A DNA stretch of 64,000 bases from Rhizobium sp. EC-SD404 (GTDB lineage: Bacteria; Pseudomonadota; Alphaproteobacteria; Rhizobiales; Rhizobiaceae): assembly GCF_902498825.1 (NCBI RefSeq), contig NZ_LR701458.1, positions 26,205 through 90,204 on the forward strand. The letters are read 5' to 3'. Position 1 is the stretch's first letter. Every line of letters starts with the position of its first letter. A model generated the notes under the pieces. The model searched no databases. It was not told where the DNA came from and worked only from the letters and a program-made list of their open reading frames with translations. The position numbers were made by a program, and so were the translations under genes. This document shows positions 48,964 through 61,008 of the stretch, in pieces.

Positions 48964-49008
48964 GACGACGGCTCCCTTAATCGCACGCAATTTTTTTTGG
49001 AGAATTCG

Positions 49009-50289
49009 ATGACCGGGGCGCTCACATCGATCGGCCTTCTGCTTGCCCTGCTCGGTTTGGGCGTCCCGATGATCTCGGCGTTGCTCGCGGCCGTCGCCTT
49101 GGCATTCCTTCTGGGTGGTCAGTGGTCGATGATGATCCCGCAGTCGATGATCTCCGGTATGAGCACCTTCACACTTCTCTCGTTGCCGCTGTTCGTGCTG
49201 GCCGGAGCCTTGATGAACGCCGGCGGCCTGTCGGGCAGGCTTTTCGATTTCGCGCGATCGCTTGTTGGGTGGATGAGGGGTGGTCTCGCTCACGTCAACG
49301 TTCTGTCCAGCATGTTCTTCGGCGGCATGGTCGGTTCGTCGTCCGCCGATCTGGCCGGATCCGGATCGGTCATCATCCCGGCGATGAAGAAGGAAGGCTA
49401 TCCGGCCGAAGTGGCCGCTGCCGTCAGCGCGTCTTCGTCCGGCATCGGACCCTTGATCCCGCCAAGCTCGCCCATGATCCTGTACTCTGCCGTCACGGGA
49501 ACGTCGCTCGGCGCGCTGTTTCTGGCCGGTCTCATTCCCGGCATTCTCCTGGGTGTCGTTTTCATGCTGGTTGTTGCCTTTCTCGCACGGCGCCAGGGTT
49601 GGAAGACGCATGGCGCGTTTTCGTGGGGCGAGATCGGCAGAAGCGGGCGCGGTGCGCTGCTCGCTTTCGGCATGCCCGCCATCATCGTCGGCGGCCTCGT
49701 TGCAGGTGTTTTTACGCCATCGGAAGGCGGCGCGTTCGGTGTTGCCTATGCGCTCTTTCTTTCGGTCGCCGTCTACCGGTCCCTGAACTGGAAACAGGTC
49801 TATCGGGTCTTCGCCTCTGCTGTTCAGACGACGGGCGAACTGCTGCTCATCGTCAGTCTCTCGGCAGCGTTCGGTGCGAGCCTGTCGAGCGCCCATGTGC
49901 CGCAGGCGTTGGGCGACCTGATTTCGCTGGTCAGCTTCGGCGACGGGCTTTTCCTGAAAATCCTCTTCCTTATGGCTCTGGCGATCATCGCGGGCATGTT
50001 CCTTGATCCGCTTATTCCGGTTTTTGTGCCGGTCGTTCTGCCAGCGCTCCTGGCATTCGACATCGACCTCATCCATTTCGGCACGCTGATGGTGATGGCC
50101 GTGGTCATCGGACAGTTGACGCCGCCGCTTGCCATGTCCGTCATCATCGTCAGTCGCATCGCGAACGCCGATCAGATCCGGATCATCCGCGCCAACATGC
50201 CGTTTCTGATTGCGATCCTTGCGTTCACGGTACTTCTGATCGCGGTGCCGTCCCTATCCACCTGGCTCCCAGCCGTTGCGCTGAACTGA
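49009..50289 (+). CDS. dctM: TRAP transporter large permease DctM
   Basis: A 426-residue membrane protein with about 12 helices, the sodium-driven channel of the system. Signatures include LLSLPLFVLAGALMNAGGLSGRL, SSADLAGSGSVIIPAMKKEGY, SSSGIGPLIPPSSPMILY and GMFLDPLIPVFVPVVLP. It starts at 49009 behind TTGGAG that follows a run of eight T. A hairpin after the stop may end the operon. Confidence 0.92.
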   Translation: MTGALTSIGLLLALLGLGVPMISALLAAVALAFLLGGQWSMMIPQSMISGMSTFTLLSLPLFVLAGALMNAGGLSGRLFDFARSLVGWMRGGLAHVNVLSSMFFGGMVGSSSADLAGSGSVIIPAMKKEGYPAEVAAAVSASSSGIGPLIPPSSPMILYSAVTGTSLGALFLAGLIPGILLGVVFMLVVAFLARRQGWKTHGAFSWGEIGRSGRGALLAFGMPAIIVGGLVAGVFTPSEGGAFGVAYALFLSVAVYRSLNWKQVYRVFASAVQTTGELLLIVSLSAAFGASLSSAHVPQALGDLISLVSFGDGLFLKILFLMALAIIAGMFLDPLIPVFVPVVLPALLAFDIDLIHFGTLMVMAVVIGQLTPPLAMSVIIVSRIANADQIRIIRANMPFLIAILAFTVLLIAVPSLSTWLPAVALN

Positions 50290-50330
50290 CGATCGCTCAA
50301 GCGCGCCGCGGCATGGCGGCTTCGATCGTT
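50289..50330 (+). terminator. Hairpin after dctM
   Basis: ACGATCG (50289-50295) pairs with CGATCGT (50323-50329), with an additional AAGC/GCTT and GC-rich inner stem, and is followed by TT. It overlaps the last base of the dctM stop region and precedes the next gene. Confidence 0.45.
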
Positions 50331-50350
50331 TGGAGCCACCATCGGAATCT

Positions 50351-51343
50351 ATGATGCAAATTTTGCGTAGACTCGGCCTTGATCCGTTCATGCTCATGCT
50401 GATCGGGACAGTAATCCTCGCGGCCCTGATGCCGGCGACCGGTTATGGCGCGTTCCTTGTCGGCAACGCGGCTTATGCAGCCGTATGTCTGTTGTTCTTT
50501 GTCTACGGACTGAAGCTCGATCCGGGCGATATCGGAAGGGGGCTGCGCAACTGGCGTCTCCAGTCTCTGGTGCTCGCTATGACCTACGCGGTCTTTCCGT
50601 TGCTTGGCCTCCTGATCGTTACCATAATCGCAGGGCACCTGCCCGAGGAACTGGTGATTGGATTTCTCTTCCTGGCGATCCTGCCGTCGACCGTACAATC
50701 GTCCATCGCCTTCACGTCGCTGTCCAATGGCGACGTCGGTGCCGCGATCTGTGCCGCATCGCTCTCCAACATCGTGGGCGTCGTCCTCACACCGCTTCTG
50801 GCCGCTCTTCTCTTGCGATCGTCGGGCGGGGTGAGCAGCGACACGGTCATCAACATCGCCATGCAGATACTTCTTCCATTTGCGCTGGGTCAGGCAATGC
50901 GCCCACTATTGGGCGGGTGGATCGCGAAACGCCCCATGCTCAGCCTCGTGGTCGATCGCGGGTCGATCCTGCTGATCGTCTATTCGGCGTTCAGTGCCGG
51001 CATGGTCGCCGGTGTCTGGCAGCGGATCGATCTGTCCATTCTTGGCACGGTGCTGGTGATCGAAGCGCTGCTCCTCGCCACGATCCTGACAATGGCGATG
51101 CTGATCGCCAAGACTTCCGGATTGCAGCAGCGCGAAGCCGTGGTGGTGCAATTCTGTGGGTCGACGAAGAGCATCGCAACGGGGATTCCAATCGCCAACA
51201 TCGTGTTTGCCGGCACGCCCGTCAGCTTGATCGTGTTGCCCCTGATGCTCTTTCACCAGATGCAGCTCTTCGTATGCGCCTCGCTCGCACAGCGATACAG
51301 TCAGCGTGTCAAGAAGCCCATCCAAAGCCCTGCAGGAGAATGA
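50351..51343 (+). CDS. Bile acid:sodium symporter family (BASS/YfeH-like) transporter
   Basis: A 330-residue membrane protein with about ten helices. Family patterns are FFVYGLKLDPGDIGRGLRNW, LPSTVQSSIAFTSLSNGDVGAAI and CGSTKSIATGIPIANIVFAG, the last two being the crossed-helix substrate/sodium regions. YfeH-type members transport organic anions that are mostly unidentified. It ends four bases before the amidase start, so the two are one unit. Whether they share the GntR regulon with the upstream TRAP genes depends on read-through of the hairpin. Confidence 0.85.
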   Translation: MMQILRRLGLDPFMLMLIGTVILAALMPATGYGAFLVGNAAYAAVCLLFFVYGLKLDPGDIGRGLRNWRLQSLVLAMTYAVFPLLGLLIVTIIAGHLPEELVIGFLFLAILPSTVQSSIAFTSLSNGDVGAAICAASLSNIVGVVLTPLLAALLLRSSGGVSSDTVINIAMQILLPFALGQAMRPLLGGWIAKRPMLSLVVDRGSILLIVYSAFSAGMVAGVWQRIDLSILGTVLVIEALLLATILTMAMLIAKTSGLQQREAVVVQFCGSTKSIATGIPIANIVFAGTPVSLIVLPLMLFHQMQLFVCASLAQRYSQRVKKPIQSPAGE

Positions 51344-51347
51344 CGGC

Positions 51348-52631
51348 ATGGACAAAGAGGCATATGAATTGGGCGCGTTGGAAGCTCATGCTCTTATCGA
51401 ATCCGGACGCTTAAGCGCAGAAGCGCTTGCTCGATCCTGTCTGGAGCGCATCGAGACGTTGGAGCCAACGATCGGCGCCTTTGTTTACTTCGACAGGGAC
51501 CATTTCCTGAATCAGGCGCAACGAGTCGATCGAGAGGGCTGGGCAGGCCCGCTTAAGGGTGTGCCGATCGGTATCAAGGATATCTTCGACACGGTCGATA
51601 TGCCCACCGAGTACGGCTCTCCAATTTATGAAGACTTCCAGCCGAGGCGCGATGCCACGGTGGTGGCCATGATCCGCAGGGCAGGGGGTGTCATCGCCGG
51701 CAAGACCACCACGACGGAATTCGCCGGTGTGGCACCGACGTCGACACGCAATCCAAGGCACATCGATCACACGCCGGGCGGATCCTCTGCCGGCTCCGCG
51801 GCTGCTGTCGCAGCCGGGATGGTGCCGCTGGCGATTGGAACGCAAACCGGCGGGTCGATCATCCGCCCGGCCGCCTATTGCGGCGTCGTCGGTTTCAAGC
51901 CGAGCTTCGGATCGATCGATCGAACGGGCGTACGGCCAGCCGTGGAGACGCTGGACACGATCGGCGTATTTGCCCGCTCCGTGGCGGATGCTGCCCATCT
52001 CTTTGCGGTGCTTGCAGGCCACCCATCCAAGGGTTCCAACGAGGCCGCCGAGCCGATGGCACCGCGGATTGGACTCTGCAGGACCCTGCAATGGAGCGCC
52101 GCATCGCCGATCATCCAGACGACGCTGCTGGAGGCTGGTGAGCGTTTGGGAACGGCCGGTGCCGAATGTCGGTATTTCGAACTGCCCCCGGCGTTCCAGG
52201 ATCTGATGGAAGCTCAGAGGGTCATCATGATGCATGGCTCCCTGCTATCGACGCTGTCGGAATACCACCACCAGCCCGATGCGCTCTCGCCCGAAACGAT
52301 GGGGTTCGTTCAAGCGGGGCTCGAGATATCGCCGGATGACGTCAGGCACGCCTGGGTTCAAATTCGCCAGGCCCGGAACGCGCTCGCCCATGCCATGGAA
52401 AATGTCGATGTCCTGATCACCCCGGCCGTACCGGACACGGCTCCCCTGGGCTTGTCGTCAACGGGCGATGCCATCTTCAACAAGCTCTGGACGGCGCTCG
52501 GCGTGCCAGCCATCACGCTGCCCGCAGGCAATGCGCCGAACGGGTTGCCGCTTTCGGTCCAGATCATTGGTAAAGCGAATTTCGACAACGAGCTTCTTGG
52601 CCATGCACGCTTCATCGAGACGCGACTCTGA
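51348..52631 (+). CDS. Amidase (amidase-signature family)
   Basis: A 427-residue Ser-cisSer-Lys amidase. The catalytic Lys is in IGIKDIFDT (about residue 77), the cis-Ser in TPGGSSAGSAAAVAAG and the nucleophile Ser in TQTGGSIIRPAAYCGV. Length is typical. The start at 51348 follows AGGAG. It would hydrolyse an amide, possibly the compound brought in by the neighbouring transporter, releasing an acid and ammonia; the substrate is not defined by sequence. Confidence 0.88.
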   Translation: MDKEAYELGALEAHALIESGRLSAEALARSCLERIETLEPTIGAFVYFDRDHFLNQAQRVDREGWAGPLKGVPIGIKDIFDTVDMPTEYGSPIYEDFQPRRDATVVAMIRRAGGVIAGKTTTTEFAGVAPTSTRNPRHIDHTPGGSSAGSAAAVAAGMVPLAIGTQTGGSIIRPAAYCGVVGFKPSFGSIDRTGVRPAVETLDTIGVFARSVADAAHLFAVLAGHPSKGSNEAAEPMAPRIGLCRTLQWSAASPIIQTTLLEAGERLGTAGAECRYFELPPAFQDLMEAQRVIMMHGSLLSTLSEYHHQPDALSPETMGFVQAGLEISPDDVRHAWVQIRQARNALAHAMENVDVLITPAVPDTAPLGLSSTGDAIFNKLWTALGVPAITLPAGNAPNGLPLSVQIIGKANFDNELLGHARFIETRL

Positions 52632-52826: not shown

Positions 52827-52854
52827 TTGACAGGGCGTCGCTACGAGTTAATCA
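52827..52854 (+). promoter_or_regulatory. Candidate sigma-70 promoter of the LacI gene
   Basis: TTGACA at 52827-52832 and TAATCA at 52849-52854 are 16 bases apart. Two LacI-type operator copies begin six bases downstream. Confidence 0.5.
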
Positions 52855-52859
52855 TCTAG

Positions 52860-52884
52860 TAAACCGCTATACTAAACCGCTTTA
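52860..52884. promoter_or_regulatory. Tandem LacI-type operators
   Basis: TAAACCGCTATA (52860-52871) and TAAACCGCTTTA (52873-52884) repeat with a 13-base period. The second fits TAAAnCGnTTTA, a symmetric site centred on CG as used by LacI-family repressors. They are placed between the promoter and the GTG start, suiting autorepression. Confidence 0.55.
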
Positions 52885-52897
52885 CAATGGTGAGAGC

Positions 52898-53920
52898 GTG
52901 GGCACGAGACCGCCGAGCCTCAAAGATGTTGCCCGCGCGGCCGATGTTTCGGTCACAACCGTATCGCGTCTCTTGAACGGCAGTCTTGATCTTCCACCGG
53001 CAACCCGAATCCGGATCGAGGATGCGATCCGCGTCCTCAATTATCGGCCCAATCCACATGCGCGGCGCCTCAGCTTGGGGCGCTCCGAAACCATCGGGCT
53101 CGTTGTTCCGGACATCGCCAATCCCTTCTTCGCCACGCTGGTTTCGGCTGTCGAAAACGAGGCCGATGCGCGTGGTCTGGTGGTCTCGCTTTATGCGACG
53201 CTGAACCGGCCCGGACGCGAACGCACCTATCTTGAGCTCATTGCCCGCAATCATGTCGACGGGCTGATCTTCGTTACGAACCACCCGGATGACGGTGAAC
53301 TTGCGCGCCTGATCAATAGGACGGGCAAGGTCGTGGTCGTCGACGAAGACGTTCCGAATGCCATTGCGCCCAAGCTTTTTTGCGACAACCTCGAAGGCGG
53401 CAGGCTCGCGGGTTTGCATTTCGCTGAACATGGGCACCGGCGCGTTCTCTTCATTGGAGGGCGTGAAGAGATGATCAGCGCCAAGCGTCGTTACGAAGGC
53501 CTCGCCGCCGGTCTTCGGGGATCGAGCGACGCGGCCGACGAGCCGCAGCGCTATTCGGGTGAATACACGATCGAATACGGCCGCGCGGCCGCCCGGCGCT
53601 TCATTGCGGAAGGCATGCCAGCAACGGCGATCTTCGCGAGCTCGGACGAAATTGCGATCGGCTTGATGGAAGTTTTTGCTTCCGCTGGCGTGTCGATCCC
53701 GCGCGATGTTTCGGTGATCGGTTTCGACAATGTCGGCCCGCTGCACCTTTTCAATCCGCCGCTGACCGCTGTCGAGCAGCCGGTGCGTGATCTTGGCCGC
53801 CGCGCGCTCGAAGTTCTACTGGAAACCAATTGGCAGGACGACAAGCCTTTCGACGGCGAGGAACTCCTGCCCATCAAAATCGTGAGGCGGCACTCCGTTG
53901 CACCGCCCGCGAAACCATAA
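52898..53920 (+). CDS. LacI family transcriptional regulator
   Basis: A 340-residue repressor starting at GTG 52898. The DNA-binding head is PPSLKDVARAADVSVTTVSRLLNG, with the hinge IRVLNYRPNPHARRL. The periplasmic-binding-like domain starts IGLVVPDIANPFFATLV and ends with a conserved SVIGFDNVGPLHLFNPPLT block. It lies 36 bases upstream of an ABC sugar-type operon, which it presumably controls in response to the imported compound or a breakdown product. Confidence 0.9.
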   Translation: MGTRPPSLKDVARAADVSVTTVSRLLNGSLDLPPATRIRIEDAIRVLNYRPNPHARRLSLGRSETIGLVVPDIANPFFATLVSAVENEADARGLVVSLYATLNRPGRERTYLELIARNHVDGLIFVTNHPDDGELARLINRTGKVVVVDEDVPNAIAPKLFCDNLEGGRLAGLHFAEHGHRRVLFIGGREEMISAKRRYEGLAAGLRGSSDAADEPQRYSGEYTIEYGRAAARRFIAEGMPATAIFASSDEIAIGLMEVFASAGVSIPRDVSVIGFDNVGPLHLFNPPLTAVEQPVRDLGRRALEVLLETNWQDDKPFDGEELLPIKIVRRHSVAPPAKP

Positions 53921-53956
53921 AAATTAGCAACGATCAAACCCTAGAGGACAGGAACA

Positions 53957-54910
53957 ATGACCATGAATTTGACAAGACGCCTTACCCTTGCTGCCATGGC
54001 CACAACGGCGATGGTCAGCTTCACGTCCAGCTTTGCGCTCGCGCAGGATGCCAAGACCTACGCTCTGGTACAGATCAACCAGCAGGCACTTTTCTTCAAT
54101 CAGATGAACGAAGGCGCCCAGGAAGCTGCCGACGCCTCCGGCGCAGAGCTTGTGATTTTCAACGCCAACAATGACCCGGCCGCGCAGAACAGCGCGATCG
54201 AAACCTATATCCAGCAGGGCGTCGATGGTCTGATCGTCGTGGCTATCGACGTCAACGGCATCATGCCGGCGGTGCAACAGGCAGATGAAGCCGGCATTCC
54301 GGTCGTCGCCATTGACGCCATCCTGCCCGAAGGTCCCCAGAAAGCACAGATCGGCGTCGACAACGCAGCCGCCGGCGCCGACATGGCCGCTTACTTCGTC
54401 GACTATGTCGCGGCGGACATGGGTGGAACAGCCAAACTCGGTATAGTTGGTGCCCTCAACTCCTTCATCCAGAACGTGCGCCAGGAAGGCTTCGAAACAG
54501 GCCTTGAAGGCGTCGAAGGAATAGAGATCGCAGGCGTCGTCGATGGCCAAAATGTGCAGGACACGGCACTCTCCGCCGCCGAAAACCTGATCACGGCCAA
54601 TCCCGACCTGACGGCTATCTATGCGACAGGCGAGCCAGCGCTGCTGGGCGCCATCGCCGCTGTGGAAAGCCAGGGCAAGCAGGACAGCGTCAAGGTGTTC
54701 GGCTGGGACCTCACGGCACAAGCGATCAGCGGCATCGACCAGGGCTTCGTCCAGGCGGTGGTCCAGCAAGATCCGGCAGGAATGGGCTCGGCTGCCGTCG
54801 AGGCGCTCGACAAGATCACAGCCGGGGAAACGGTCGATGCCGAAATATCGGTGCCGATTACGATCGTCACCACAGAGAACGTCGAACCATACCGGGCCGT
54901 CTTCCAGTGA
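53957..54910 (+). CDS. Sugar-type ABC transporter binding protein (RbsB-like)
   Basis: A 317-residue periplasmic binding protein of the Peripla_BP_4 group. The signal peptide ends near ALAQD (residue about 30). Family elements are QQALFFNQMNEGAQEAADASG, NNDPAAQNSAIETYIQQGVDGLIV and a later VFGWDLTAQAISGIDQG. Members bind pentoses, hexoses, inositol, autoinducer-2 or nucleoside-like ligands. It leads an operon with the ATPase, permease and two enzymes. Confidence 0.9.
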   Translation: MTMNLTRRLTLAAMATTAMVSFTSSFALAQDAKTYALVQINQQALFFNQMNEGAQEAADASGAELVIFNANNDPAAQNSAIETYIQQGVDGLIVVAIDVNGIMPAVQQADEAGIPVVAIDAILPEGPQKAQIGVDNAAAGADMAAYFVDYVAADMGGTAKLGIVGALNSFIQNVRQEGFETGLEGVEGIEIAGVVDGQNVQDTALSAAENLITANPDLTAIYATGEPALLGAIAAVESQGKQDSVKVFGWDLTAQAISGIDQGFVQAVVQQDPAGMGSAAVEALDKITAGETVDAEISVPITIVTTENVEPYRAVFQ

Positions 54911-55719
54911 TGGTGGAAACCGGGCTCGATTTGGCCACGGCCGGGACCGGGAGGGGTGATCCCTCCCGGTCTGGGGCTGACTGGCCAACGCCACGCATCG
55001 AGTTGTCGGGCATCCGCAAGAGTTTCGGCTCGGTCGAAGCATTGCGCGGTGTCGACCTGGCACTCTATCCCGGCGAATGTCTTGGACTTGTCGGCGACAA
55101 CGCGGCCGGCAAGTCGACGCTGACCAAGGTCATTTCCGGAACGTATATCCCCGACGGCGGCACTATCGCCATGGACGGCGAGGAAGTGTCTTTCACGGGG
55201 CCCGCCGAAGCGCGTCGCCGCCATATCGAAATGGTGTTCCAGGATCTCAGCCTGTGTGACCACATCGACGTCGTCGGCAATCTGTTTCTCGGACGCGAGC
55301 CGACCAAGGGGCTTTTTCTGGATCGGGCAACGATGCTGGCCGAGGGCCGCAAGATGCTCGATGCCCTCGAGATTCGCATTCCGAAGCTGACCGCTAAGGT
55401 CGCCCAACTGTCGGGCGGTCAACGCCAGGCGATCGCCATCGCCCGCGCCGCATCGTTCAACCCGAAGGTCCTGATCATGGACGAGCCGACATCGGCGCTT
55501 GCTGTTGCCGAAGTCGAAGCCGTGCTGGCACTCATCAACCGGGTCAAGGCACGCGGTGTCTCCGTTATCTTGATCACCCATCGTCTGCAGGATCTGTTCC
55601 GCGTCTGCGACCGCATCGCCGTGATGTACGAGGGGACGAAAGTGGCCGAGCGGGCGATCGACGACACCAGCCTCGAAGACCTCGTCCGACTGATCGTCGG
55701 CGAAGGAGTCCACCGATGA
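54910..55719 (+). CDS. Sugar-type ABC transporter ATP-binding protein, single domain
   Basis: A 269-residue ATPase with one nucleotide-binding domain: Walker A GDNAAGKST, signature LSGGQRQAIAIARA, Walker B VLIMDEPTSAL and switch His in LITHRLQDLF. RbsA-type proteins usually contain two domains (about 500 residues); this half-size form, like the rhizobial fructose ATPase FrcA, must work as a homodimer. The ATG overlaps the previous stop (TGATG), and the end overlaps the permease start. Confidence 0.9.
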   Translation: MVETGLDLATAGTGRGDPSRSGADWPTPRIELSGIRKSFGSVEALRGVDLALYPGECLGLVGDNAAGKSTLTKVISGTYIPDGGTIAMDGEEVSFTGPAEARRRHIEMVFQDLSLCDHIDVVGNLFLGREPTKGLFLDRATMLAEGRKMLDALEIRIPKLTAKVAQLSGGQRQAIAIARAASFNPKVLIMDEPTSALAVAEVEAVLALINRVKARGVSVILITHRLQDLFRVCDRIAVMYEGTKVAERAIDDTSLEDLVRLIVGEGVHR

Positions 55720-56723
55720 GCACGACCTATACCGAACGCGGCCAGGGGTCGGCGATGGCTGATTTCCTGACCGAGCACGCGCAAGTGCTGTCGATCACCT
55801 TCTTCTTTCTCATGTGTCTTGTGTTCTTCTCAGTCACGACGGACACGTTCCTGACGCTCGGTAATGTGCTGAACGTCATTCGTCAGGCCGCACCCATCCT
55901 CGTCGTTGCGGTTGCGATGACCTTTGTGATCATCACCGGCGGCATCGATCTGTCGGTGGGCTCACAGGTGGCACTGGTCAATGCACTGGCTGCGATCCTG
56001 CTTGCTGCCGGCTTTCCCTGGCCGCTGGTCCTCGTCGCCATGCTGGTGTTCGGCGCGGTCGTCGGGTTCATGCAAGGCTGGTTCGTGGCCTATCAGGGCA
56101 TTCCCGCCTTTATCGTGACGCTTGCCGGGCTTTCGATACTTCGCGGTATCGCGCTCTATCTGACGCAAGGCTATTCGATCCCGATCACCGACGTCCCAGG
56201 CTTCTTCTACATTGGCCGAGGCACGCTCGCCGGCATTCCGGTCCCAGCCATCATCGCCATCGTGATTGCCGCGCTCGGCTATATTGTTGTGACGGCGACG
56301 AAATACGGCCGCCAGGTGGTCGCCGTCGGTTCCAATGCCGAGGCCGCACGGCGGGTTGGGATGCCTGCACGCTGGTCGATCGCGTCGGTTTACATGATCG
56401 CAGGCGTCGCTTCCGCGATTGCCGGGATCCTGATCGCCGCCCGGCTGGGCTCCGGCTCTTCGAATGCGGCGGTCGGCTTCGAGTTGCAGGTGATCGCCGC
56501 CGTCGTGCTCGGTGGAACGTCGTTGATGGGTGGCCGTGGCTCGATCCTCGGCACCATTCTCGGCACGCTGACCATCGCCGTGATCGGCAATGGGCTGATC
56601 CTGATGCACATCTCGCCGTTCTTCACCCAGATCGTGACGGGTGCGATCATCCTGATCGCAATCTGGCTCAACACGCGGATTTTCACGGCCAACTTCCGGT
56701 TCGGCAAAAGGAGAGGCCGATGA
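55716..56723 (+). CDS. Sugar-type ABC transporter permease (RbsC-like)
   Basis: A 335-residue membrane protein of the branched-chain/ribose permease family with about 9-10 helices. Typical segments are ITGGIDLSVGSQVALVNALA, IPAFIVTLAGLSILRGIALYLTQG (in pieces), GSNAEAARRVGMP and VVLGGTSLMGGRGSILGTILG. Overlaps of four bases at each end couple it to the ATPase and the phosphotriesterase-related gene. Confidence 0.91.
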   Translation: MSTTYTERGQGSAMADFLTEHAQVLSITFFFLMCLVFFSVTTDTFLTLGNVLNVIRQAAPILVVAVAMTFVIITGGIDLSVGSQVALVNALAAILLAAGFPWPLVLVAMLVFGAVVGFMQGWFVAYQGIPAFIVTLAGLSILRGIALYLTQGYSIPITDVPGFFYIGRGTLAGIPVPAIIAIVIAALGYIVVTATKYGRQVVAVGSNAEAARRVGMPARWSIASVYMIAGVASAIAGILIAARLGSGSSNAAVGFELQVIAAVVLGGTSLMGGRGSILGTILGTLTIAVIGNGLILMHISPFFTQIVTGAIILIAIWLNTRIFTANFRFGKRRGR

Positions 56724-57793
56724 GCCCATCCGACGAGCGTTCGCCTGCCCATGTGAGGTCGGGCCTGGTCATGACTGTCGACGGAGCGATTCCGGCCGAT
56801 GGGCTTGGCGTTACCCTGATGCACGAGCACATCCTCAACGACTGCCGCTGCTGGTGGAATCCGCCGACGGAGCCGGAACGGCAGTATTTGGCTGAGATGC
56901 CCGTCTCCATCGAAATCCTGTCGGAGCTGCGCCAGGACCCTTTCGTCAACAAGCACAACATCGCTCTCGACGAGGAACCGCTGGCGATGGAGGAACTGAA
57001 GCAGTTCGTCTCAGTGGGTGGCGCCACGGTCGTGGATCCCACGTGCATCGGAATCGGCCGCGACCCGAAGGCGCTGCGTCGGATCTCCAAGGCGACGGGG
57101 CTCAACATCGTCATGGGGTCCGGCTATTACCTGCAGACGTCGCATCCGCCGGAACTGGCCGACATGCGCGTTGAGGACGTGGCGGACAAGATCGTGCGTG
57201 AGGCCGTCGACGGTGTTGACCGAACCGATGCAAAAATCGGTCTGATCGGCGAAATCGGTGTTTCATCGGACTTCACGCCGGATGAGGAGAAATCGTTGCG
57301 CGGCGCGATTCAGGCCCAAGCACGAACGGCCCTTCCGCTGATGGTGCACCTGCCGGGTTGGTACCGTCTCGCGCACCGCGTTCTGGACATTGTGGAAGAG
57401 GAGGGGGGCGACATCCGTCACACCGTTCTCTGCCATATGAACCCCTCGCATGATGATTTCGCCTATCAAAGCGAGTTGGCGGACCGCGGTGCCTTCATCG
57501 AGTACGACATGATCGGCATGGACTACTTCTACGCGGATCAACAGGTTCAGTGTCCGAGCGACGACGATGCCGCCCGGGCCATCGTCAGGCTTGCGGAGGC
57601 GGGCCATCTCGGCCGCATTCTTCTGTCGCAGGACGTGTTCGTCAAAATAATGCTGACCCGCTATGGCGGCAACGGCTACGCCTTCGTCGTCCGTCACTTT
57701 CTGCCGCGCCTGAAACGGCACGGGCTCGACGATGCAGCGCTCGAGCGTCTGATGCGCGCCAATCCGAAAGCCGTGTTTTCCAGTGCGGGCTAA
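56720..57793 (+). CDS. Phosphotriesterase-related (Php/lactonase-type) amidohydrolase
   Basis: A 357-residue TIM-barrel metallohydrolase. Metal ligands are the HxH in LMHEHIL, His in LMVHLPGW, His in LCHMNPSHDD and Asp in LLSQDVF. The position that is a carboxylated Lys in phosphotriesterase appears as Glu in GLIGEIGVS, as in E. coli Php. Characterised relatives hydrolyse sugar lactones or acyl groups rather than phosphotriesters. It is fused to the ABC operon by a four-base overlap, so it probably acts on the imported compound. Confidence 0.82.
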   Translation: MSPSDERSPAHVRSGLVMTVDGAIPADGLGVTLMHEHILNDCRCWWNPPTEPERQYLAEMPVSIEILSELRQDPFVNKHNIALDEEPLAMEELKQFVSVGGATVVDPTCIGIGRDPKALRRISKATGLNIVMGSGYYLQTSHPPELADMRVEDVADKIVREAVDGVDRTDAKIGLIGEIGVSSDFTPDEEKSLRGAIQAQARTALPLMVHLPGWYRLAHRVLDIVEEEGGDIRHTVLCHMNPSHDDFAYQSELADRGAFIEYDMIGMDYFYADQQVQCPSDDDAARAIVRLAEAGHLGRILLSQDVFVKIMLTRYGGNGYAFVVRHFLPRLKRHGLDDAALERLMRANPKAVFSSAG

Positions 57794-57826
57794 GGCGCCG
57801 CCATCCAATCAATGAACGGAACGAGC

Positions 57827-58600
57827 ATGACAAAGAAGAAGGTACTCCTCGTCGGCGAAAGCTGGGTGAGTTCAGCAACGCATTACAAGGGCTTCGATCA
57901 GTTCGGCAGCGTCACGTTTCATCTGGGCGCCGAACCATTAGTGGCTGCTTTGAAAGACAGCGAATTCGAGCTCACCTATATGACCGCTCACGATGCGGTC
58001 GAAAAATTCCCGTTCGAAATGGCCGGGCTGGACGCCCATGACGCGATCATCCTGTCGGATATCGGTGCCAATTCGTTTCTTCTACCGCCGGCGGTGTGGT
58101 TGCACTCGAAGACGGTGCCTAACAGGCTGAAGCTCATCAAGGAATGGGTGGCGAAGGGCGGCGGCCTGCTGATGGTCGGCGGTTATTTCTCATTCCAAGG
58201 TATCGACGGCAAAGCGCGCTGGCGCAAAACGCCGGTGGAAGACACTTTGCCCGTCACCTGCCTTCCCTATGACGACCGTGTTGAGATCCCAGAAGGTGCG
58301 ATCGCGGAAATCGTCGAAGGCACCCATCCGATTCTCGCTGGCCTCGAAGGCACCTGGCCTCTGCTGCTTGGCGTCAACGAGGTCGAGCTCCGCAAAGATA
58401 CGACACTTCTGGCGCGGCTTCCTGCGGATCAGGGCGGCCATCCACTGCTCGCGACGGGCGGGCATGGAAAGGGGCGAACCGTTGCCTGGACATCCGACAT
58501 CGGTCCGCACTGGCTGTCGCCAGCATTTTGCGCCTGGGACGGCTATCCCAAGCTCTGGAAGAACATTCTCGGTTGGCTGACAGAGCCCGGTCGAGTCTAG
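57827..58600 (+). CDS. DUF1355 putative glutamine amidotransferase-like protein
   Basis: A 257-residue flavodoxin-like/GATase-1-like fold protein of the family annotated as putative glutamine amidotransferase. It starts KKVLLVGESWVSSATHYKGFD and has GGGLLMVGGYFSFQGI, HPILAGL and GRTVAWTSDIGPHW. The Cys nucleophile of true GATases is not in the usual place (segment reads GGYFS), so it is probably not an active amidotransferase. Its stop overlaps the convergent PfkB stop within CTAG. Confidence 0.75.
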   Translation: MTKKKVLLVGESWVSSATHYKGFDQFGSVTFHLGAEPLVAALKDSEFELTYMTAHDAVEKFPFEMAGLDAHDAIILSDIGANSFLLPPAVWLHSKTVPNRLKLIKEWVAKGGGLLMVGGYFSFQGIDGKARWRKTPVEDTLPVTCLPYDDRVEIPEGAIAEIVEGTHPILAGLEGTWPLLLGVNEVELRKDTTLLARLPADQGGHPLLATGGHGKGRTVAWTSDIGPHWLSPAFCAWDGYPKLWKNILGWLTEPGRV

Positions 58601-59496
58601 CGCTGCGCGAGAATGGCAGTGAGTTCGATGCGCGTCGGAAAAGCGGAAAATGTGCCACGCCGGCTGACGGTCAGTGCCGCGGCTTCCGCTGCGTGTTCGA
58701 CCGCCAGGCGATCGACCGTAACACCGCGCAATGCGGCGGAAGCCAGCGCGGTTGCCATGAACGTGTCGCCGGCGCCTGTGGTATCGACGACCGGGCATGC
58801 TTTCGCAGGAACCTTGACGGTTTCGGCACCGCTCACGACCAGAGCGCCTTCGGCGCCCAACGTCAGCACCGCGGTCGAAACACCTGCCTCAACAAGTGTC
58901 CGCATGGCCTCCTCGCCTTGGCGTCCGGTCAGAAGTTCCGCTTCGCCTTCATTGAGGAATGCGATGTCGATCAACGGCCAGAACGCGGCAAAGAAAGGCC
59001 GTACCGGGGATGGATTGAAGGCGTTGATCGTCCCGAGACGTTTGCCCTCGACCAGCAGGCTGCGCGTCGTCGCGTCGCTTAAATTGCCTTGGAGCACCAG
59101 AACGTCGCCGGCTTTCGCTCCGGACATGATTGCTAGGGCGGCGTCGAGGGGAAGGTTCTGGGCGGAATCCGTCGTGGTTACGATGGAATTGTCGCCATCG
59201 GGAGTAACGAGAACCATGGAAAAATCGCTGGCCCCGCCCTCAATGCGCAGAAGCCTCGCGTCCAGCGCCTCCCGCTCGACGCGTCGGGTGATGCTGTCGG
59301 CACGGAAATCGTCGCCGACAGCGGCGATCAACGTTGTGTCGAGACCCGTGCGCGACAGCACGGCTGCTTGGTTGGCGCCCTTTCCACCGAGGTCTCGCGA
59401 TTGCTGGCGCCCAAGTATGGAAGCCCCACGCGCAGGCATTTCATCGACGGCGATCGTTTCGTCGATGGCGATGTTGCCGACTACGTAAGCGCGCAT
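58597..59496 (-). CDS. PfkB family carbohydrate/nucleoside kinase
   Basis: A 299-residue ribokinase-like enzyme. The N-terminal pair GRQQSRDLGGKGANQAAVLSR and the C-terminal anion hole VVDTTGAGDTFMA with catalytic Asp are both present. It would phosphorylate a sugar or nucleoside hydroxyl. The start at 59496 has AAGG seven bases upstream. It lies on the opposite strand inside a plus-strand gene set: stops overlap on one side, and only 22 bases separate its start from the BtpA-type start on the other. Confidence 0.88.
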   Translation of the reverse strand: MRAYVVGNIAIDETIAVDEMPARGASILGRQQSRDLGGKGANQAAVLSRTGLDTTLIAAVGDDFRADSITRRVEREALDARLLRIEGGASDFSMVLVTPDGDNSIVTTTDSAQNLPLDAALAIMSGAKAGDVLVLQGNLSDATTRSLLVEGKRLGTINAFNPSPVRPFFAAFWPLIDIAFLNEGEAELLTGRQGEEAMRTLVEAGVSTAVLTLGAEGALVVSGAETVKVPAKACPVVDTTGAGDTFMATALASAALRGVTVDRLAVEHAAEAAALTVSRRGTFSAFPTRIELTAILAQR

Positions 59497-59518
59497 GAAC
59501 AACCTTGGAGAAGACCAG

Positions 59519-60361
59519 ATGCAGACGATATCGGACCGGGACACCAGCGCAATACGGGAAATATTCGGGCGCGACAAGGCAACGATCGGCGTCGTCCATT
59601 GCCCGGCGTTTCCAGGTGCGCCCCGCTATCGGGACGCGTCGATGGACGCGATTTACGACCAGTGCATGCGCGATGCGGAGGCATATCAACAGGGCGGCCT
59701 TCACGGACTGATCATCGAGAACCATGGGGATGTGCCATTCTCCAAGCCCGATGATATCGGGCCGGAGACCACCGGTTTCATGTCAGTGGTCACCGACCGG
59801 ATCGCGCGTCAGATCGATATTCCGCTCGGCATCAACGTTCTCGCCAATGCGCCGATTCCCGCCTTCGCGATTGCCGTGGCCGGCGGTGCCAAATTCATCC
59901 GGGTCAACCAATGGGCGAACGCCTACGTCGCCAATGAGGGATTCATGGAAGGGCGGGCGGCTGAGGCAATGCGGTATCGATCGTTGCTGCGGGCCGAACA
60001 TATCAAGGTTTTCGCCGACAGTCATGTGAAGCACGGGAGCCACGCAATCGTCGCCGACCGATCCATTGAGGAACTAACCCGCGATCTCGCTTTCTTTGAC
60101 GTGGATGCCGTCATCGCTACCGGTCAGAGAACGGGCAACACCGCCACGCTCGAGGAGATCGAGACCGTCGGCAGCGCGACGCATCTGCCGCTGCTCGTTG
60201 GTTCTGGCGTCACGAAGGATAATGTCGTTGCCATACTTGAGCGCACGAGCGGCGTCATTGTCGCCTCATCGCTGAAGCATGGCGGCGTCTGGTGGAACGC
60301 CGTGGACATCGAGCGAGTGAAGGCTTTCGCGGATGCAGTTGCGGAGGGGCTGGGCGGATGA
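59519..60361 (+). CDS. BtpA/SgcQ family protein
   Basis: A 280-residue TIM-barrel protein. Signatures include IGVVHCPAFPGAPRYRD, GGLHGLIIENHGDVPF, GINVLANAPIPAFAIA, RVNQWANAYVANEGFMEGRAAEAMRYR cut into shorter blocks, and VIATGQRTGNTAT. BtpA was linked to photosystem I stability in cyanobacteria; SgcQ lies in a sugar operon in E. coli; no reaction is established. ATG 59519 follows TTGGAG. It overlaps the TenA-like gene by four bases. Confidence 0.86.
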   Translation: MQTISDRDTSAIREIFGRDKATIGVVHCPAFPGAPRYRDASMDAIYDQCMRDAEAYQQGGLHGLIIENHGDVPFSKPDDIGPETTGFMSVVTDRIARQIDIPLGINVLANAPIPAFAIAVAGGAKFIRVNQWANAYVANEGFMEGRAAEAMRYRSLLRAEHIKVFADSHVKHGSHAIVADRSIEELTRDLAFFDVDAVIATGQRTGNTATLEEIETVGSATHLPLLVGSGVTKDNVVAILERTSGVIVASSLKHGGVWWNAVDIERVKAFADAVAEGLGG

Positions 60362-61008
60362 CACTCACGGACAGGCTTTTGAGCGAAAATGCCGATGTCC
60401 TGGATGCGATGCTGAACCATCGCTTCGTGAGAGCCGTCGGAAACGATGTGCTGTCACCCTCCGAATTCGATGCCTATCTCGTTTACGAAGGGGCATTCGT
60501 AGAGACGGCGATATCGATCTTCGCGCACATGCTGACGCGCGCTGAAACCATGGAGGATAAGCGCAGGATCATCACCATCCTCGATGCCCTCGCCAATGAG
60601 CAGATCGCCTATTTCGAAGCTGTTTTCCTCGAACGGGGGATTACACCCGCTGATTACCCGTTGCCGGGGTCGGTCATCGCTTTCGACAGCGGCATGGCGG
60701 AGGTTGCGCGTAACGGCACTTTTGCCGACATTGCCTGCGCGATGTTCGCGGCCGAATGGATGTATATGACCTGGAGCCGCAACGTCGATCAGGATCGTCT
60801 GCAAGATGCTCATTTGGCGACCTGGGTCCGGCTGCACACCGATCCCGGTTTCGTAGATCAGGCACATTGGCTTCGCCGCAAGGTGGACGAGGCCGGTGAC
60901 GATCCCGACATCGATATCGATCGCATCTCCGCGATCTTCCGACGCGTTTTGGAGCTTGAGATCACGTTCCACGACGCGCCTCTGGCCGGCGCGTCTGTTC
61001 AATCGTGA
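60358..61008 (+). CDS. TenA family protein lacking the canonical active-site cysteine
   Basis: A 216-residue all-helical protein. TenA traits are HRFVRAVGNDVLSPSEFDAYLVYE near the start and LELEITFHD near the end with the conserved Glu. Classic TenA (aminopyrimidine aminohydrolase/thiaminase II) uses a Cys in an LPCxWxY-like segment; here it reads FAAEWMY. It therefore belongs to a Cys-less branch, and the substrate may not be a thiamine pyrimidine. It is the last gene of the LacI-linked cluster. Confidence 0.8.
   Translation: MTLTDRLLSENADVLDAMLNHRFVRAVGNDVLSPSEFDAYLVYEGAFVETAISIFAHMLTRAETMEDKRRIITILDALANEQIAYFEAVFLERGITPADYPLPGSVIAFDSGMAEVARNGTFADIACAMFAAEWMYMTWSRNVDQDRLQDAHLATWVRLHTDPGFVDQAHWLRRKVDEAGDDPDIDIDRISAIFRRVLELEITFHDAPLAGASVQS

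Follow-up and report, generated by a model that had tools for sequence, protein, structure and literature searches.

Parts of the gene cluster described here are known from other bacteria. The Escherichia coli sgc operon contains a BtpA/SgcQ-family protein; we take this operon to be sugar-related and based on a phosphotransferase system, presumably without any phosphotriesterase (PTE)-family, GATase1_like (GAT) or TenA protein. The Salmonella locus STM3547-3550, published in 2026, encodes a PfkB kinase, a GATase-like protein, a DMT transporter and a PTE protein, and is presented as a pathway that may serve a carbon source not yet known (PMC13432705). Its kinase RikA (STM3547) was reported there to phosphorylate ribose well and other pentoses poorly, which the authors considered a possible off-target activity (PMC13432705). 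Here we describe a nine-gene cluster at positions 52898-61008 of a 64,000-nucleotide stretch (the window) of Rhizobium sp. EC-SD404 (assembly GCF_902498825.1, contig NZ_LR701458.1, positions 26,205 to 90,204). As in Salmonella, genes for PfkB, GAT and PTE proteins adjoin one another and the substrate is unassigned; the window differs in having an ABC system where Salmonella has the DMT transporter, and neither BtpA nor TenA occurs in the main text of the Salmonella paper (PMC13432705). The likeness of RikA to the window kinase is one of gene setting. The nine genes form one real unit, very probably a LacI-controlled uptake and breakdown operon, whose substrate we tentatively take to be a nitrogen-bearing pentose conjugate, at a little less than an even chance.

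The cluster and the sites in front of it are as follows.

52827..52855, plus strand: sigma-70-like promoter, TTGACA-17-AATCAT, upstream of lacI (consensus scan, 10/12 matches)
52861..52883, no strand: putative tandem LacI-type operator, AAACCGCTAT at 52861-52870 (one mismatch) and AAACCGCTTT at 52874-52883 (exact), 13 bp apart
52898..53920, plus strand: LacI-family regulator (LacI and Peripla_BP_3 over the Pfam cut-offs)
53957..54910, plus strand: periplasmic binding protein, ribose (CUT2) type, relative of PDB 5hsg (Pfam Peripla_BP_4; 5hsg at E=7e-120)
54907..55719, plus strand: ABC ATPase with a single nucleotide-binding domain (Pfam; closest NCBIfam models are sugar ATPases)
55716..56723, plus strand: ABC permease, ribose type (BPD_transp_2, PF02653; best NCBIfam model PRK09512)
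56720..57793, plus strand: PTE-family metal hydrolase, nearest PDB entries 3k2g then 9efa (PF02126, 209 bits against a cut-off of 22.4)
57812..58600, plus strand: GAT, PF07090 (419.5 bits against 27), homologue of 3soz and 2gk3
58597..59496, minus strand: PfkB/ribokinase-family sugar kinase, nearest PDB entry 3i3y (PF00294, 147.8 bits against 25.8)
59519..60361, plus strand: BtpA/SgcQ-family TIM barrel (PF03437, 245 against 30; TIGR00259, 233.4 against 153.4)
60358..61008, plus strand: TENA_THI-4-family protein without the thiaminase cysteine, TenA_E-like (Pfam, 46.8 bits against 22)

All genes named in the original prediction were found in this interval and matched their families over the Pfam cut-offs, with corrections. 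The order is lacI, binding protein, ATPase, permease, PTE, GAT, pfkB, btpA and tenA, with pfkB running antisense inside the operon, and the ATPase has one nucleotide-binding domain (270 amino acids, aligning with the N-terminal half of the RbsA model, which has 501 positions). The kinase open reading frame spans 58597-59577 on the minus strand, with a likely ATG start at 59496, and the likely ATG start of btpA lies at 59519, leaving 22 bp between the two divergent starts. As the kinase gene is antisense and starts this close to btpA, its promoter would need to sit within btpA. With the chosen starts, four gene pairs overlap by 4 bases (binding protein/ATPase, ATPase/permease, permease/PTE and BtpA/TenA).

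To describe conservation, genome contigs were searched with the window BtpA, which gave 514 confirmed stretches; the best 80 were kept, at 75-85% identity and mostly from Rhizobium, Ensifer, Agrobacterium and kin, and counts over them are not independent. A gene was counted as present when tblastn gave a match of at least 40% (35% for TenA) near BtpA. LacI, the binding protein, the ATPase and the permease were each found in 79/80 loci, the exception being a 7.5-kb contig (L111), and PTE, GAT and PfkB were found in 78, 79 and 80 loci, respectively. The kinase gene lies antisense before btpA in 61/80 loci and sense after it in 19/80. The genes flanking the window cluster were not conserved alongside it in the relatives' loci compared: across 122 loci, the upstream amidase and SBF-like transporter had no match, and the AraC gene had, apart from the window's own copies, a single weak one (L106, 36%). 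SDR matches in these loci were generic (25-38%). An inositol monophosphatase gene beside the Rhizobium johnstonii 3841 cluster was rejected as a core member, since it occurred in 12/80 loci, from R. leguminosarum and near kin.

The operator word AAANCGNTTT was present within 320 bp upstream of lacI in all 79 relatives having lacI (79/79), and control segments taken inside the operon carried none (0/790). After shuffling, which preserved single-base composition only, it appeared in a mean of 0.28 loci; the word had been chosen by palindrome count in the very regions later tested. Two copies were present in 66/79 loci, mostly 13 bp apart among the 40 loci with printed positions, and the exact copy at 52874 is the sole one in the 64-kb window. 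The operator site is conserved, and LacI would act through it. The scan for promoter-like sites returned 2 in the region against 2.3 expected in shuffles, a weak result alone, and the call is strengthened because the site sits directly before the operators.

Beyond the close relatives, co-occurrence was examined across the phylum in draws of 299 genomes, counting window-type BtpA at E<=1e-40 and strong GAT matches at E<1e-60 and excluding 22 more genomes with weaker, mostly partial GAT matches. Window-type BtpA occurred in 7 genomes, all among the 10 with a strong GAT match. When the window's own genome was excluded, 6/6 BtpA genomes fell within the 9 GAT genomes of 298 (hypergeometric P ~9e-11, relatedness ignored); 5 of the 7 belong to the window's own family. 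The two genes lie at most ~7 kb apart in 5/7 genomes and on separate contigs in the other two (G343 and G292). No BtpA relative was found in viral contigs. The sharing of the set by 80 relatives, the operator in 79/79 and this co-occurrence together carry the reading of the cluster as a unit, about nine genes being held together across many soil and plant bacteria. The original prediction had asked for a neighbourhood survey and named neighbours that fail to co-occur as its refutation; the set was kept in the 80 relatives, and the proposal of a candidate undescribed pathway holds in that the neighbours co-occur in many genomes. Its other stated refutation, a characterised operon with the same genes, is in print in part, as the core trio PfkB-GAT-PTE without a substrate (PMC13432705); no paper on the whole set was found in the literature searched, most subscription papers lying outside its reach.

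The binding protein and kinase are ribose-type proteins with altered ligand residues, judging from the alignments. The kinase belongs to the PfkB family by PF00294 and by its GGKGAN and DTTGAGD motifs, and scored 177.4 bits against the ribokinase equivalog TIGR02152 (cut-off 299.65) and 63 bits against the fructoselysine 6-kinase (FrlD) model (cut-off 247). Compared with E. coli ribokinase, it retains D16 and GGKGAN, has DTTGAGD in place of DTIAAGD, and carries A for N14 and N for E143. The binding protein scored 123 bits against the ribose equivalog (cut-off 337) and the permease 207.8 bits against the ribose permease model PRK09512 (cut-off 398). By eye, the binding protein retains F15, F16, D89, R141, D215 and Q235 of RbsB, with N13 and R90 replaced by A and F164 and N190 by G. 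We assume the ligand-contact roles of the RbsB and ribokinase residues compared here. Small residues in place of large ones in the binding-protein pocket suggest a ligand larger than ribose.

These features bear on the simplest alternative, an operon for plain ribose or free-pentose uptake in which GAT, PTE and TenA play side roles. The ribose-type transporter and kinase are what such an operon would have, but both the kinase and the binding protein fall far under the ribose equivalog cut-offs, their ligand residues are altered, and PTE, GAT, BtpA and TenA or the amidase described below are kept in nearly all 80 loci despite being needless for ribose use. On these points we consider free ribose use improbable and set it aside.

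Two crystallised proteins appear to be close counterparts of the transporter and kinase. A Klebsiella pneumoniae record (L187, CP125156.1) has matches to TenA, BtpA, PfkB, the binding protein, LacI, the ATPase, the permease, PTE and GAT, and differs from the window by an extra M20 gene and a rearranged gene order; an IS1 copy interrupts the kinase gene in this record, and the GAT match falls where no gene is annotated. A 5hsg fragment is identical to its binding protein at 57/57 residues, and its kinase matches 3i3y at 71/71 residues in the C-terminal fragment and 66/76 in the N-terminal one, which indicates that 5hsg and 3i3y (3i3y/3ikh) stem from the Klebsiella form of this cluster. The record, 5.37 Mb and filed as a plasmid, is evidently chromosome-sized.

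The window BtpA exceeded the cut-offs of PF03437 and TIGR00259, placing it in the BtpA/SgcQ family, and is 29.8% identical to E. coli SgcQ. The photosystem I biogenesis model NF045918 gave 190 bits against a cut-off of 400, and the link of cyanobacterial BtpA to photosystem I comes here from a family name only. No assigned reaction for BtpA/SgcQ or PF07090 was found in the literature searched. An AlphaFold2 model built with 44 close sequences (pLDDT 79, pTM 0.84) had best PDB matches that include ThiE, TrpF, HisF, TrpA and RPE, all phosphate-binding TIM barrels; over the 50 matches listed, TM-scores normalised by query length were 0.47-0.58. At the distance predicted by this model, the folds are too far apart to assign a reaction. 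GSG and ASSLK are invariant across the 44 close sequences, with NTG and GSSLK or similar at those positions in distant BtpA proteins, and the low-confidence loops 133-143 and 170-179 contain conserved residues of the likely active site.

The window's genome has a second btpA (contig C17, L169 5454-15944) in a stretch that ends ~10 kb before the first base of the window. Its neighbours, read from their translations, are a DeoR-like regulator, an FGGY-type kinase, a sugar ABC transporter and DhaK/DhaL-like genes, and the set looks like another orphan sugar route. A second BtpA with an FGGY-type kinase set ties the family to sugar kinases rather than to the substrate of the nine-gene cluster. Elsewhere, BtpA stands without such company in Halostagnicola (L120), and with two kinases, TenA and a gamma-glutamyltransferase in Roseivivax (L116), where no GAT lies within the stretch.

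The PTE protein matched 3k2g at E=1.6e-179, followed by 9efa, named a phosphotriesterase-related protein. It belongs to the PTE family by PF02126, and its HEH, E, H, H and D align with the metal ligands of PTER. PTER is a PTE relative that hydrolyses N-acetyltaurine and N-acetyl-beta-alanine, and the published accounts give its metal ligands and residue roles, with R204, R233 and H300 modelled as substrate contacts (PMC11374699, PMC13311154). The mouse enzyme shares the relation to 3k2g, its top structural match (PMC11374699 / PMC13311154). The window protein differs in having G, P and F at R204, R233 and H300 (placed by motif, by eye), so it has the PTER-like metal site without the PTER-type substrate contacts. 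The original prediction had labelled this enzyme lactonase-like, and family membership and that label are what would favour a pathway for lactone or quorum-signal breakdown led by it. Against this, the lactonase and organophosphatase models both scored under their cut-offs (52.9 against 630 bits and 66.9 against 500), and the sugar transporter, kinase and amidases are ill-suited to acyl-homoserine lactones; we regard such a pathway as highly improbable and set it aside.

The nearest PDB entries to GAT are 3soz (Salmonella STM1381) and 2gk3, which we take to be STM3548. At the place where a GxCxG elbow with the cysteine nucleophile of class I glutamine amidotransferases would be expected, GAT has GGYFSFQG, aligned with GGYLSFTG and GGYLSFMG in 3soz and 2gk3. 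Another cysteine (in LPVTC) is kept across the GATs of the cluster and is missing from 3soz and 2gk3.

TenA had been described as Cys-less in the original prediction: the catalytic cysteine is indeed missing, but the protein is not free of cysteine. The window AEWMY aligns with CGWSY of Helicobacter pylori TenA, at the place of what we take to be the catalytic cysteine of thiaminase II (C135 of Bacillus subtilis TenA), so the protein lacks the mark of a thiaminase II or salvage TenA. It has the features of TenA_E, no such cysteine and an adjoining glutamate. A131-A132-E133-W134-M135-Y136 is invariant in 33 sequences, as is E201; E133 and E201 are candidates for the two conserved glutamates that the definition of TenA_E requires (PMC5635689). 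The protein is TenA_E-like in its residues, and hydrolysis of FAMP or AmMP is a putative activity. Its model (pLDDT 95.6) is nearest in fold to 2gm8, a TenA. A heme-oxygenase-like diiron oxidase role was rejected: Foldseek placed TenA proteins first and UndA at rank 40, and no familiar metal-ligand pattern was recognised among the invariant residues.

Within the 80 loci, TenA is accompanied or replaced by an amidase of the hydantoinase/carbamoylase family (TIGR01879, 371 bits against 204). TenA alone was found in 40 loci, both in 30, the amidase alone in 10 and neither in 0; the probability that all 10 TenA-less loci carry the amidase would be 5e-4 for independent loci. In L155, L159, L162-L166, L115 and L117, which belong to a separate BtpA lineage (~60-66% identical), the amidase follows BtpA and TenA is missing. 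The genome that holds the window carries nothing closer to the amidase than a 40% relative, located on another contig. A cysteine-less TenA and a hydrolase of another fold are known for the same amide hydrolysis in thiamin salvage, TENA_E acting in plants as YlmB does in bacteria (PMC5635689), which provides a precedent for the exchange.

This likeness also raises salvage of the thiamin pyrimidine, with TenA removing a formyl or amino group from a product of thiamin breakdown that the remaining genes help to import and use. In addition to the published equivalence (PMC5635689), the TenA_E-type residues and a nearest fold of TenA bound to hydroxymethylpyrimidine fit this idea, and no other TenA-type protein was found in the genome, whose second PF03070 match reads as PqqC-like in translation. 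However, none of the nine genes is named thi, no Rfam family reached its gathering score in the window and hence no thiamin pyrophosphate (TPP) riboswitch was found, the transporter and kinase are ribose-type, the salvage_TenA model scored 37.6 bits against a cut-off of 130, and YEG stands where H. pylori TenA has QDY. Furthermore, Sagittula stellata E-37 has a TenA_E and was reported not to grow on FAMP, for which the authors suggest a missing transporter (PMC10470507); the TenA beside BtpA on its plasmid is a candidate for that TenA_E. We find thiamin salvage very unlikely and set it aside. On the same plasmid (L177 4141-11490), two BtpA genes, a kinase, TenA, a ureidoglycine aminohydrolase (allE) and a Zn-dependent hydrolase lie together, a gene company hinting at ureides.

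The surroundings of GAT were examined in 15 plasmid regions (L114, L115, L117-L119, L179-L185 and L187-L189), leaving out R. johnstonii L033 and the unannotated L178. In a by-eye tally without a control, 12/15 had a C-N hydrolase besides PTE, which in L119 was only TenA, and 9/15 had a PfkB kinase (annotations and tblastn). In other lineages, M20 enzymes, a nitrilase, hydantoinase A/B or a PIG-L deacetylase lie near GAT. A GAT-DMT-PTE set with LacI and M20 in Streptomyces (L183) is the same set as Salmonella STM3548-3550. A second GAT system (L154, L156 and L157) comprises LacI, GAT, a two-permease ABC transporter and an M20 enzyme of ArgE/DapE-like type that is 74-75% identical to the Pantoea one; these stretches had no PTE or BtpA match. 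A cluster fragment on a conjugative IncL/M plasmid of Klebsiella (L189 7903-11868; permease, PTE, GAT and M20) lies between IS26 copies and shares the plasmid with blaSHV-12.

Agrobacterium pTiA47a (L179/L186) has a GAT homologue (40%) between trbI and a LysR gene, at the margin of an Amadori-type region. Nearby are hydantoinase A/B, a SIS protein that resembles fructoselysine-6-P deglycase and a PfkB that resembles fructoselysine 6-kinase, the last two both under their equivalog cut-offs. This region bears on a rival reading, in which the compound broken down is a sugar-amino acid conjugate of the Amadori (opine-like) type and BtpA would replace the SIS-domain deglycase. HisF/TrpF-like enzymes handle ribosyl-amine and Amadori intermediates; the predicted BtpA folds are HisF/TrpF-like, and gamma-glutamyltransferase or M20 genes lie near some BtpA or GAT loci. 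On the other hand, no SIS match was found among the ten window proteins scanned, leaving the window outside the Frl/Amadori type; the kinase scored far better as a ribokinase than as a fructoselysine 6-kinase; and the Ti-plasmid case is one region, with GAT beyond a LysR gene. Of the special cases of a nitrogen-bearing pentose conjugate, or of the rivals to it, an Amadori-type compound leads, and it is unlikely as it stands.

From the gene set, its co-conservation, the operator, the folds and the residue changes, we infer the substrates, reactions and order of steps that follow. The cluster may be an operon for the inducible breakdown of a small pentose conjugate that contains nitrogen (N-riboside, glycosyl-amide, ureide or Amadori-like compound), a reading we give not quite even confidence. 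LacI on the tandem operator would repress transcription as long as neither the compound nor a product of its breakdown is present, and the ribose-type ABC transporter would bring the compound in. PTE, GAT and TenA, or the carbamoylase-family amidase of relatives, would act on the part other than the sugar, opening or trimming its C-N or acyl bonds; the ribokinase-like enzyme would phosphorylate the sugar end, and BtpA, as a phosphate-site TIM barrel, would isomerise or split the phosphorylated intermediate towards pentose phosphates. The sugar side of this scheme rests on the ribose-type kinase and binding protein, the RikA precedent and the phosphate-barrel folds of BtpA; the nitrogen side rests on the TenA/amidase pattern, the TenA_E/YlmB role, the C-N hydrolases near GAT and the amide substrates of PTER. 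The original prediction had suggested an N-glycoside or nucleoside-like compound, which is plausible: the ribose-type kinase and binding protein, the BtpA folds (ThiE, TrpF, HisF and RPE) and the recurrent C-N hydrolases are consistent with it, while substrate and reactions are not fixed by them.

Several observations weigh against a nitrogen-bearing pentose conjugate or against the unity of the set. Lactones or esters are frequent substrates of PTE enzymes, and with the acid-contact residues of PTER replaced, an amide substrate is not required. The altered pockets could also mean another sugar without nitrogen. Other BtpA genes adjoin FGGY kinases and SDR, which fits plain sugar-phosphate chemistry, as does the FGGY- and DhaK/DhaL-like company of BtpA. 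C-N hydrolases were missing from the GAT regions of Rhodococcus (L180), Roseomonas (L118) and Rhizobium sp. C104 (L185), and the background rate of such hydrolases near any gene has no control. Among the 80 loci, L113 retains the transporter, PfkB, BtpA and TenA and lacks PTE and GAT, the PTE and GAT counted in L079 come from an adjoining sister cluster, and the amidase match spans merely 63-179 amino acids in 4 of the 30 loci with both TenA and amidase. Outside them, neither TenA nor amidase was found by tblastn in L158, L118 and L160 or in L167 and L168, which are more distant, and an M20 gene follows BtpA in place of both in L184.

A more specific form would make BtpA a new deglycase or isomerase of the phosphate-barrel kind, acting on N-(5-phosphopentosyl) compounds. 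With PF07090, a PTE-type amidase and an interchangeable TenA_E/carbamoylase step, it would make up a widespread undescribed route by which plant- and soil-associated bacteria eat modified or damaged nucleosides or opine-like glycosyl-amides. We think this form doubtful; if true, it would give functions to BtpA/SgcQ and PF07090 at once. A glycosyl-amide or modified nucleoside as substrate would reveal a nutrient of root- and soil-dwelling bacteria; the authors of the RikA study suspect such a pathway in Salmonella (PMC13432705). Exchange between TenA and the carbamoylase would add an example of amide hydrolysis by TenA_E that lies outside vitamin salvage. The cluster provides the long-orphaned BtpA family with a testable setting: its operator can be read, its binding protein is soluble and two Klebsiella counterparts are crystallised (5hsg and 3i3y), which makes the substrate directly findable.

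Upstream of the cluster, a TRAP DctM subunit, the SBF-like transporter and the amidase-family protein lie at 48997-52631 of the window and are perhaps a separate small set.

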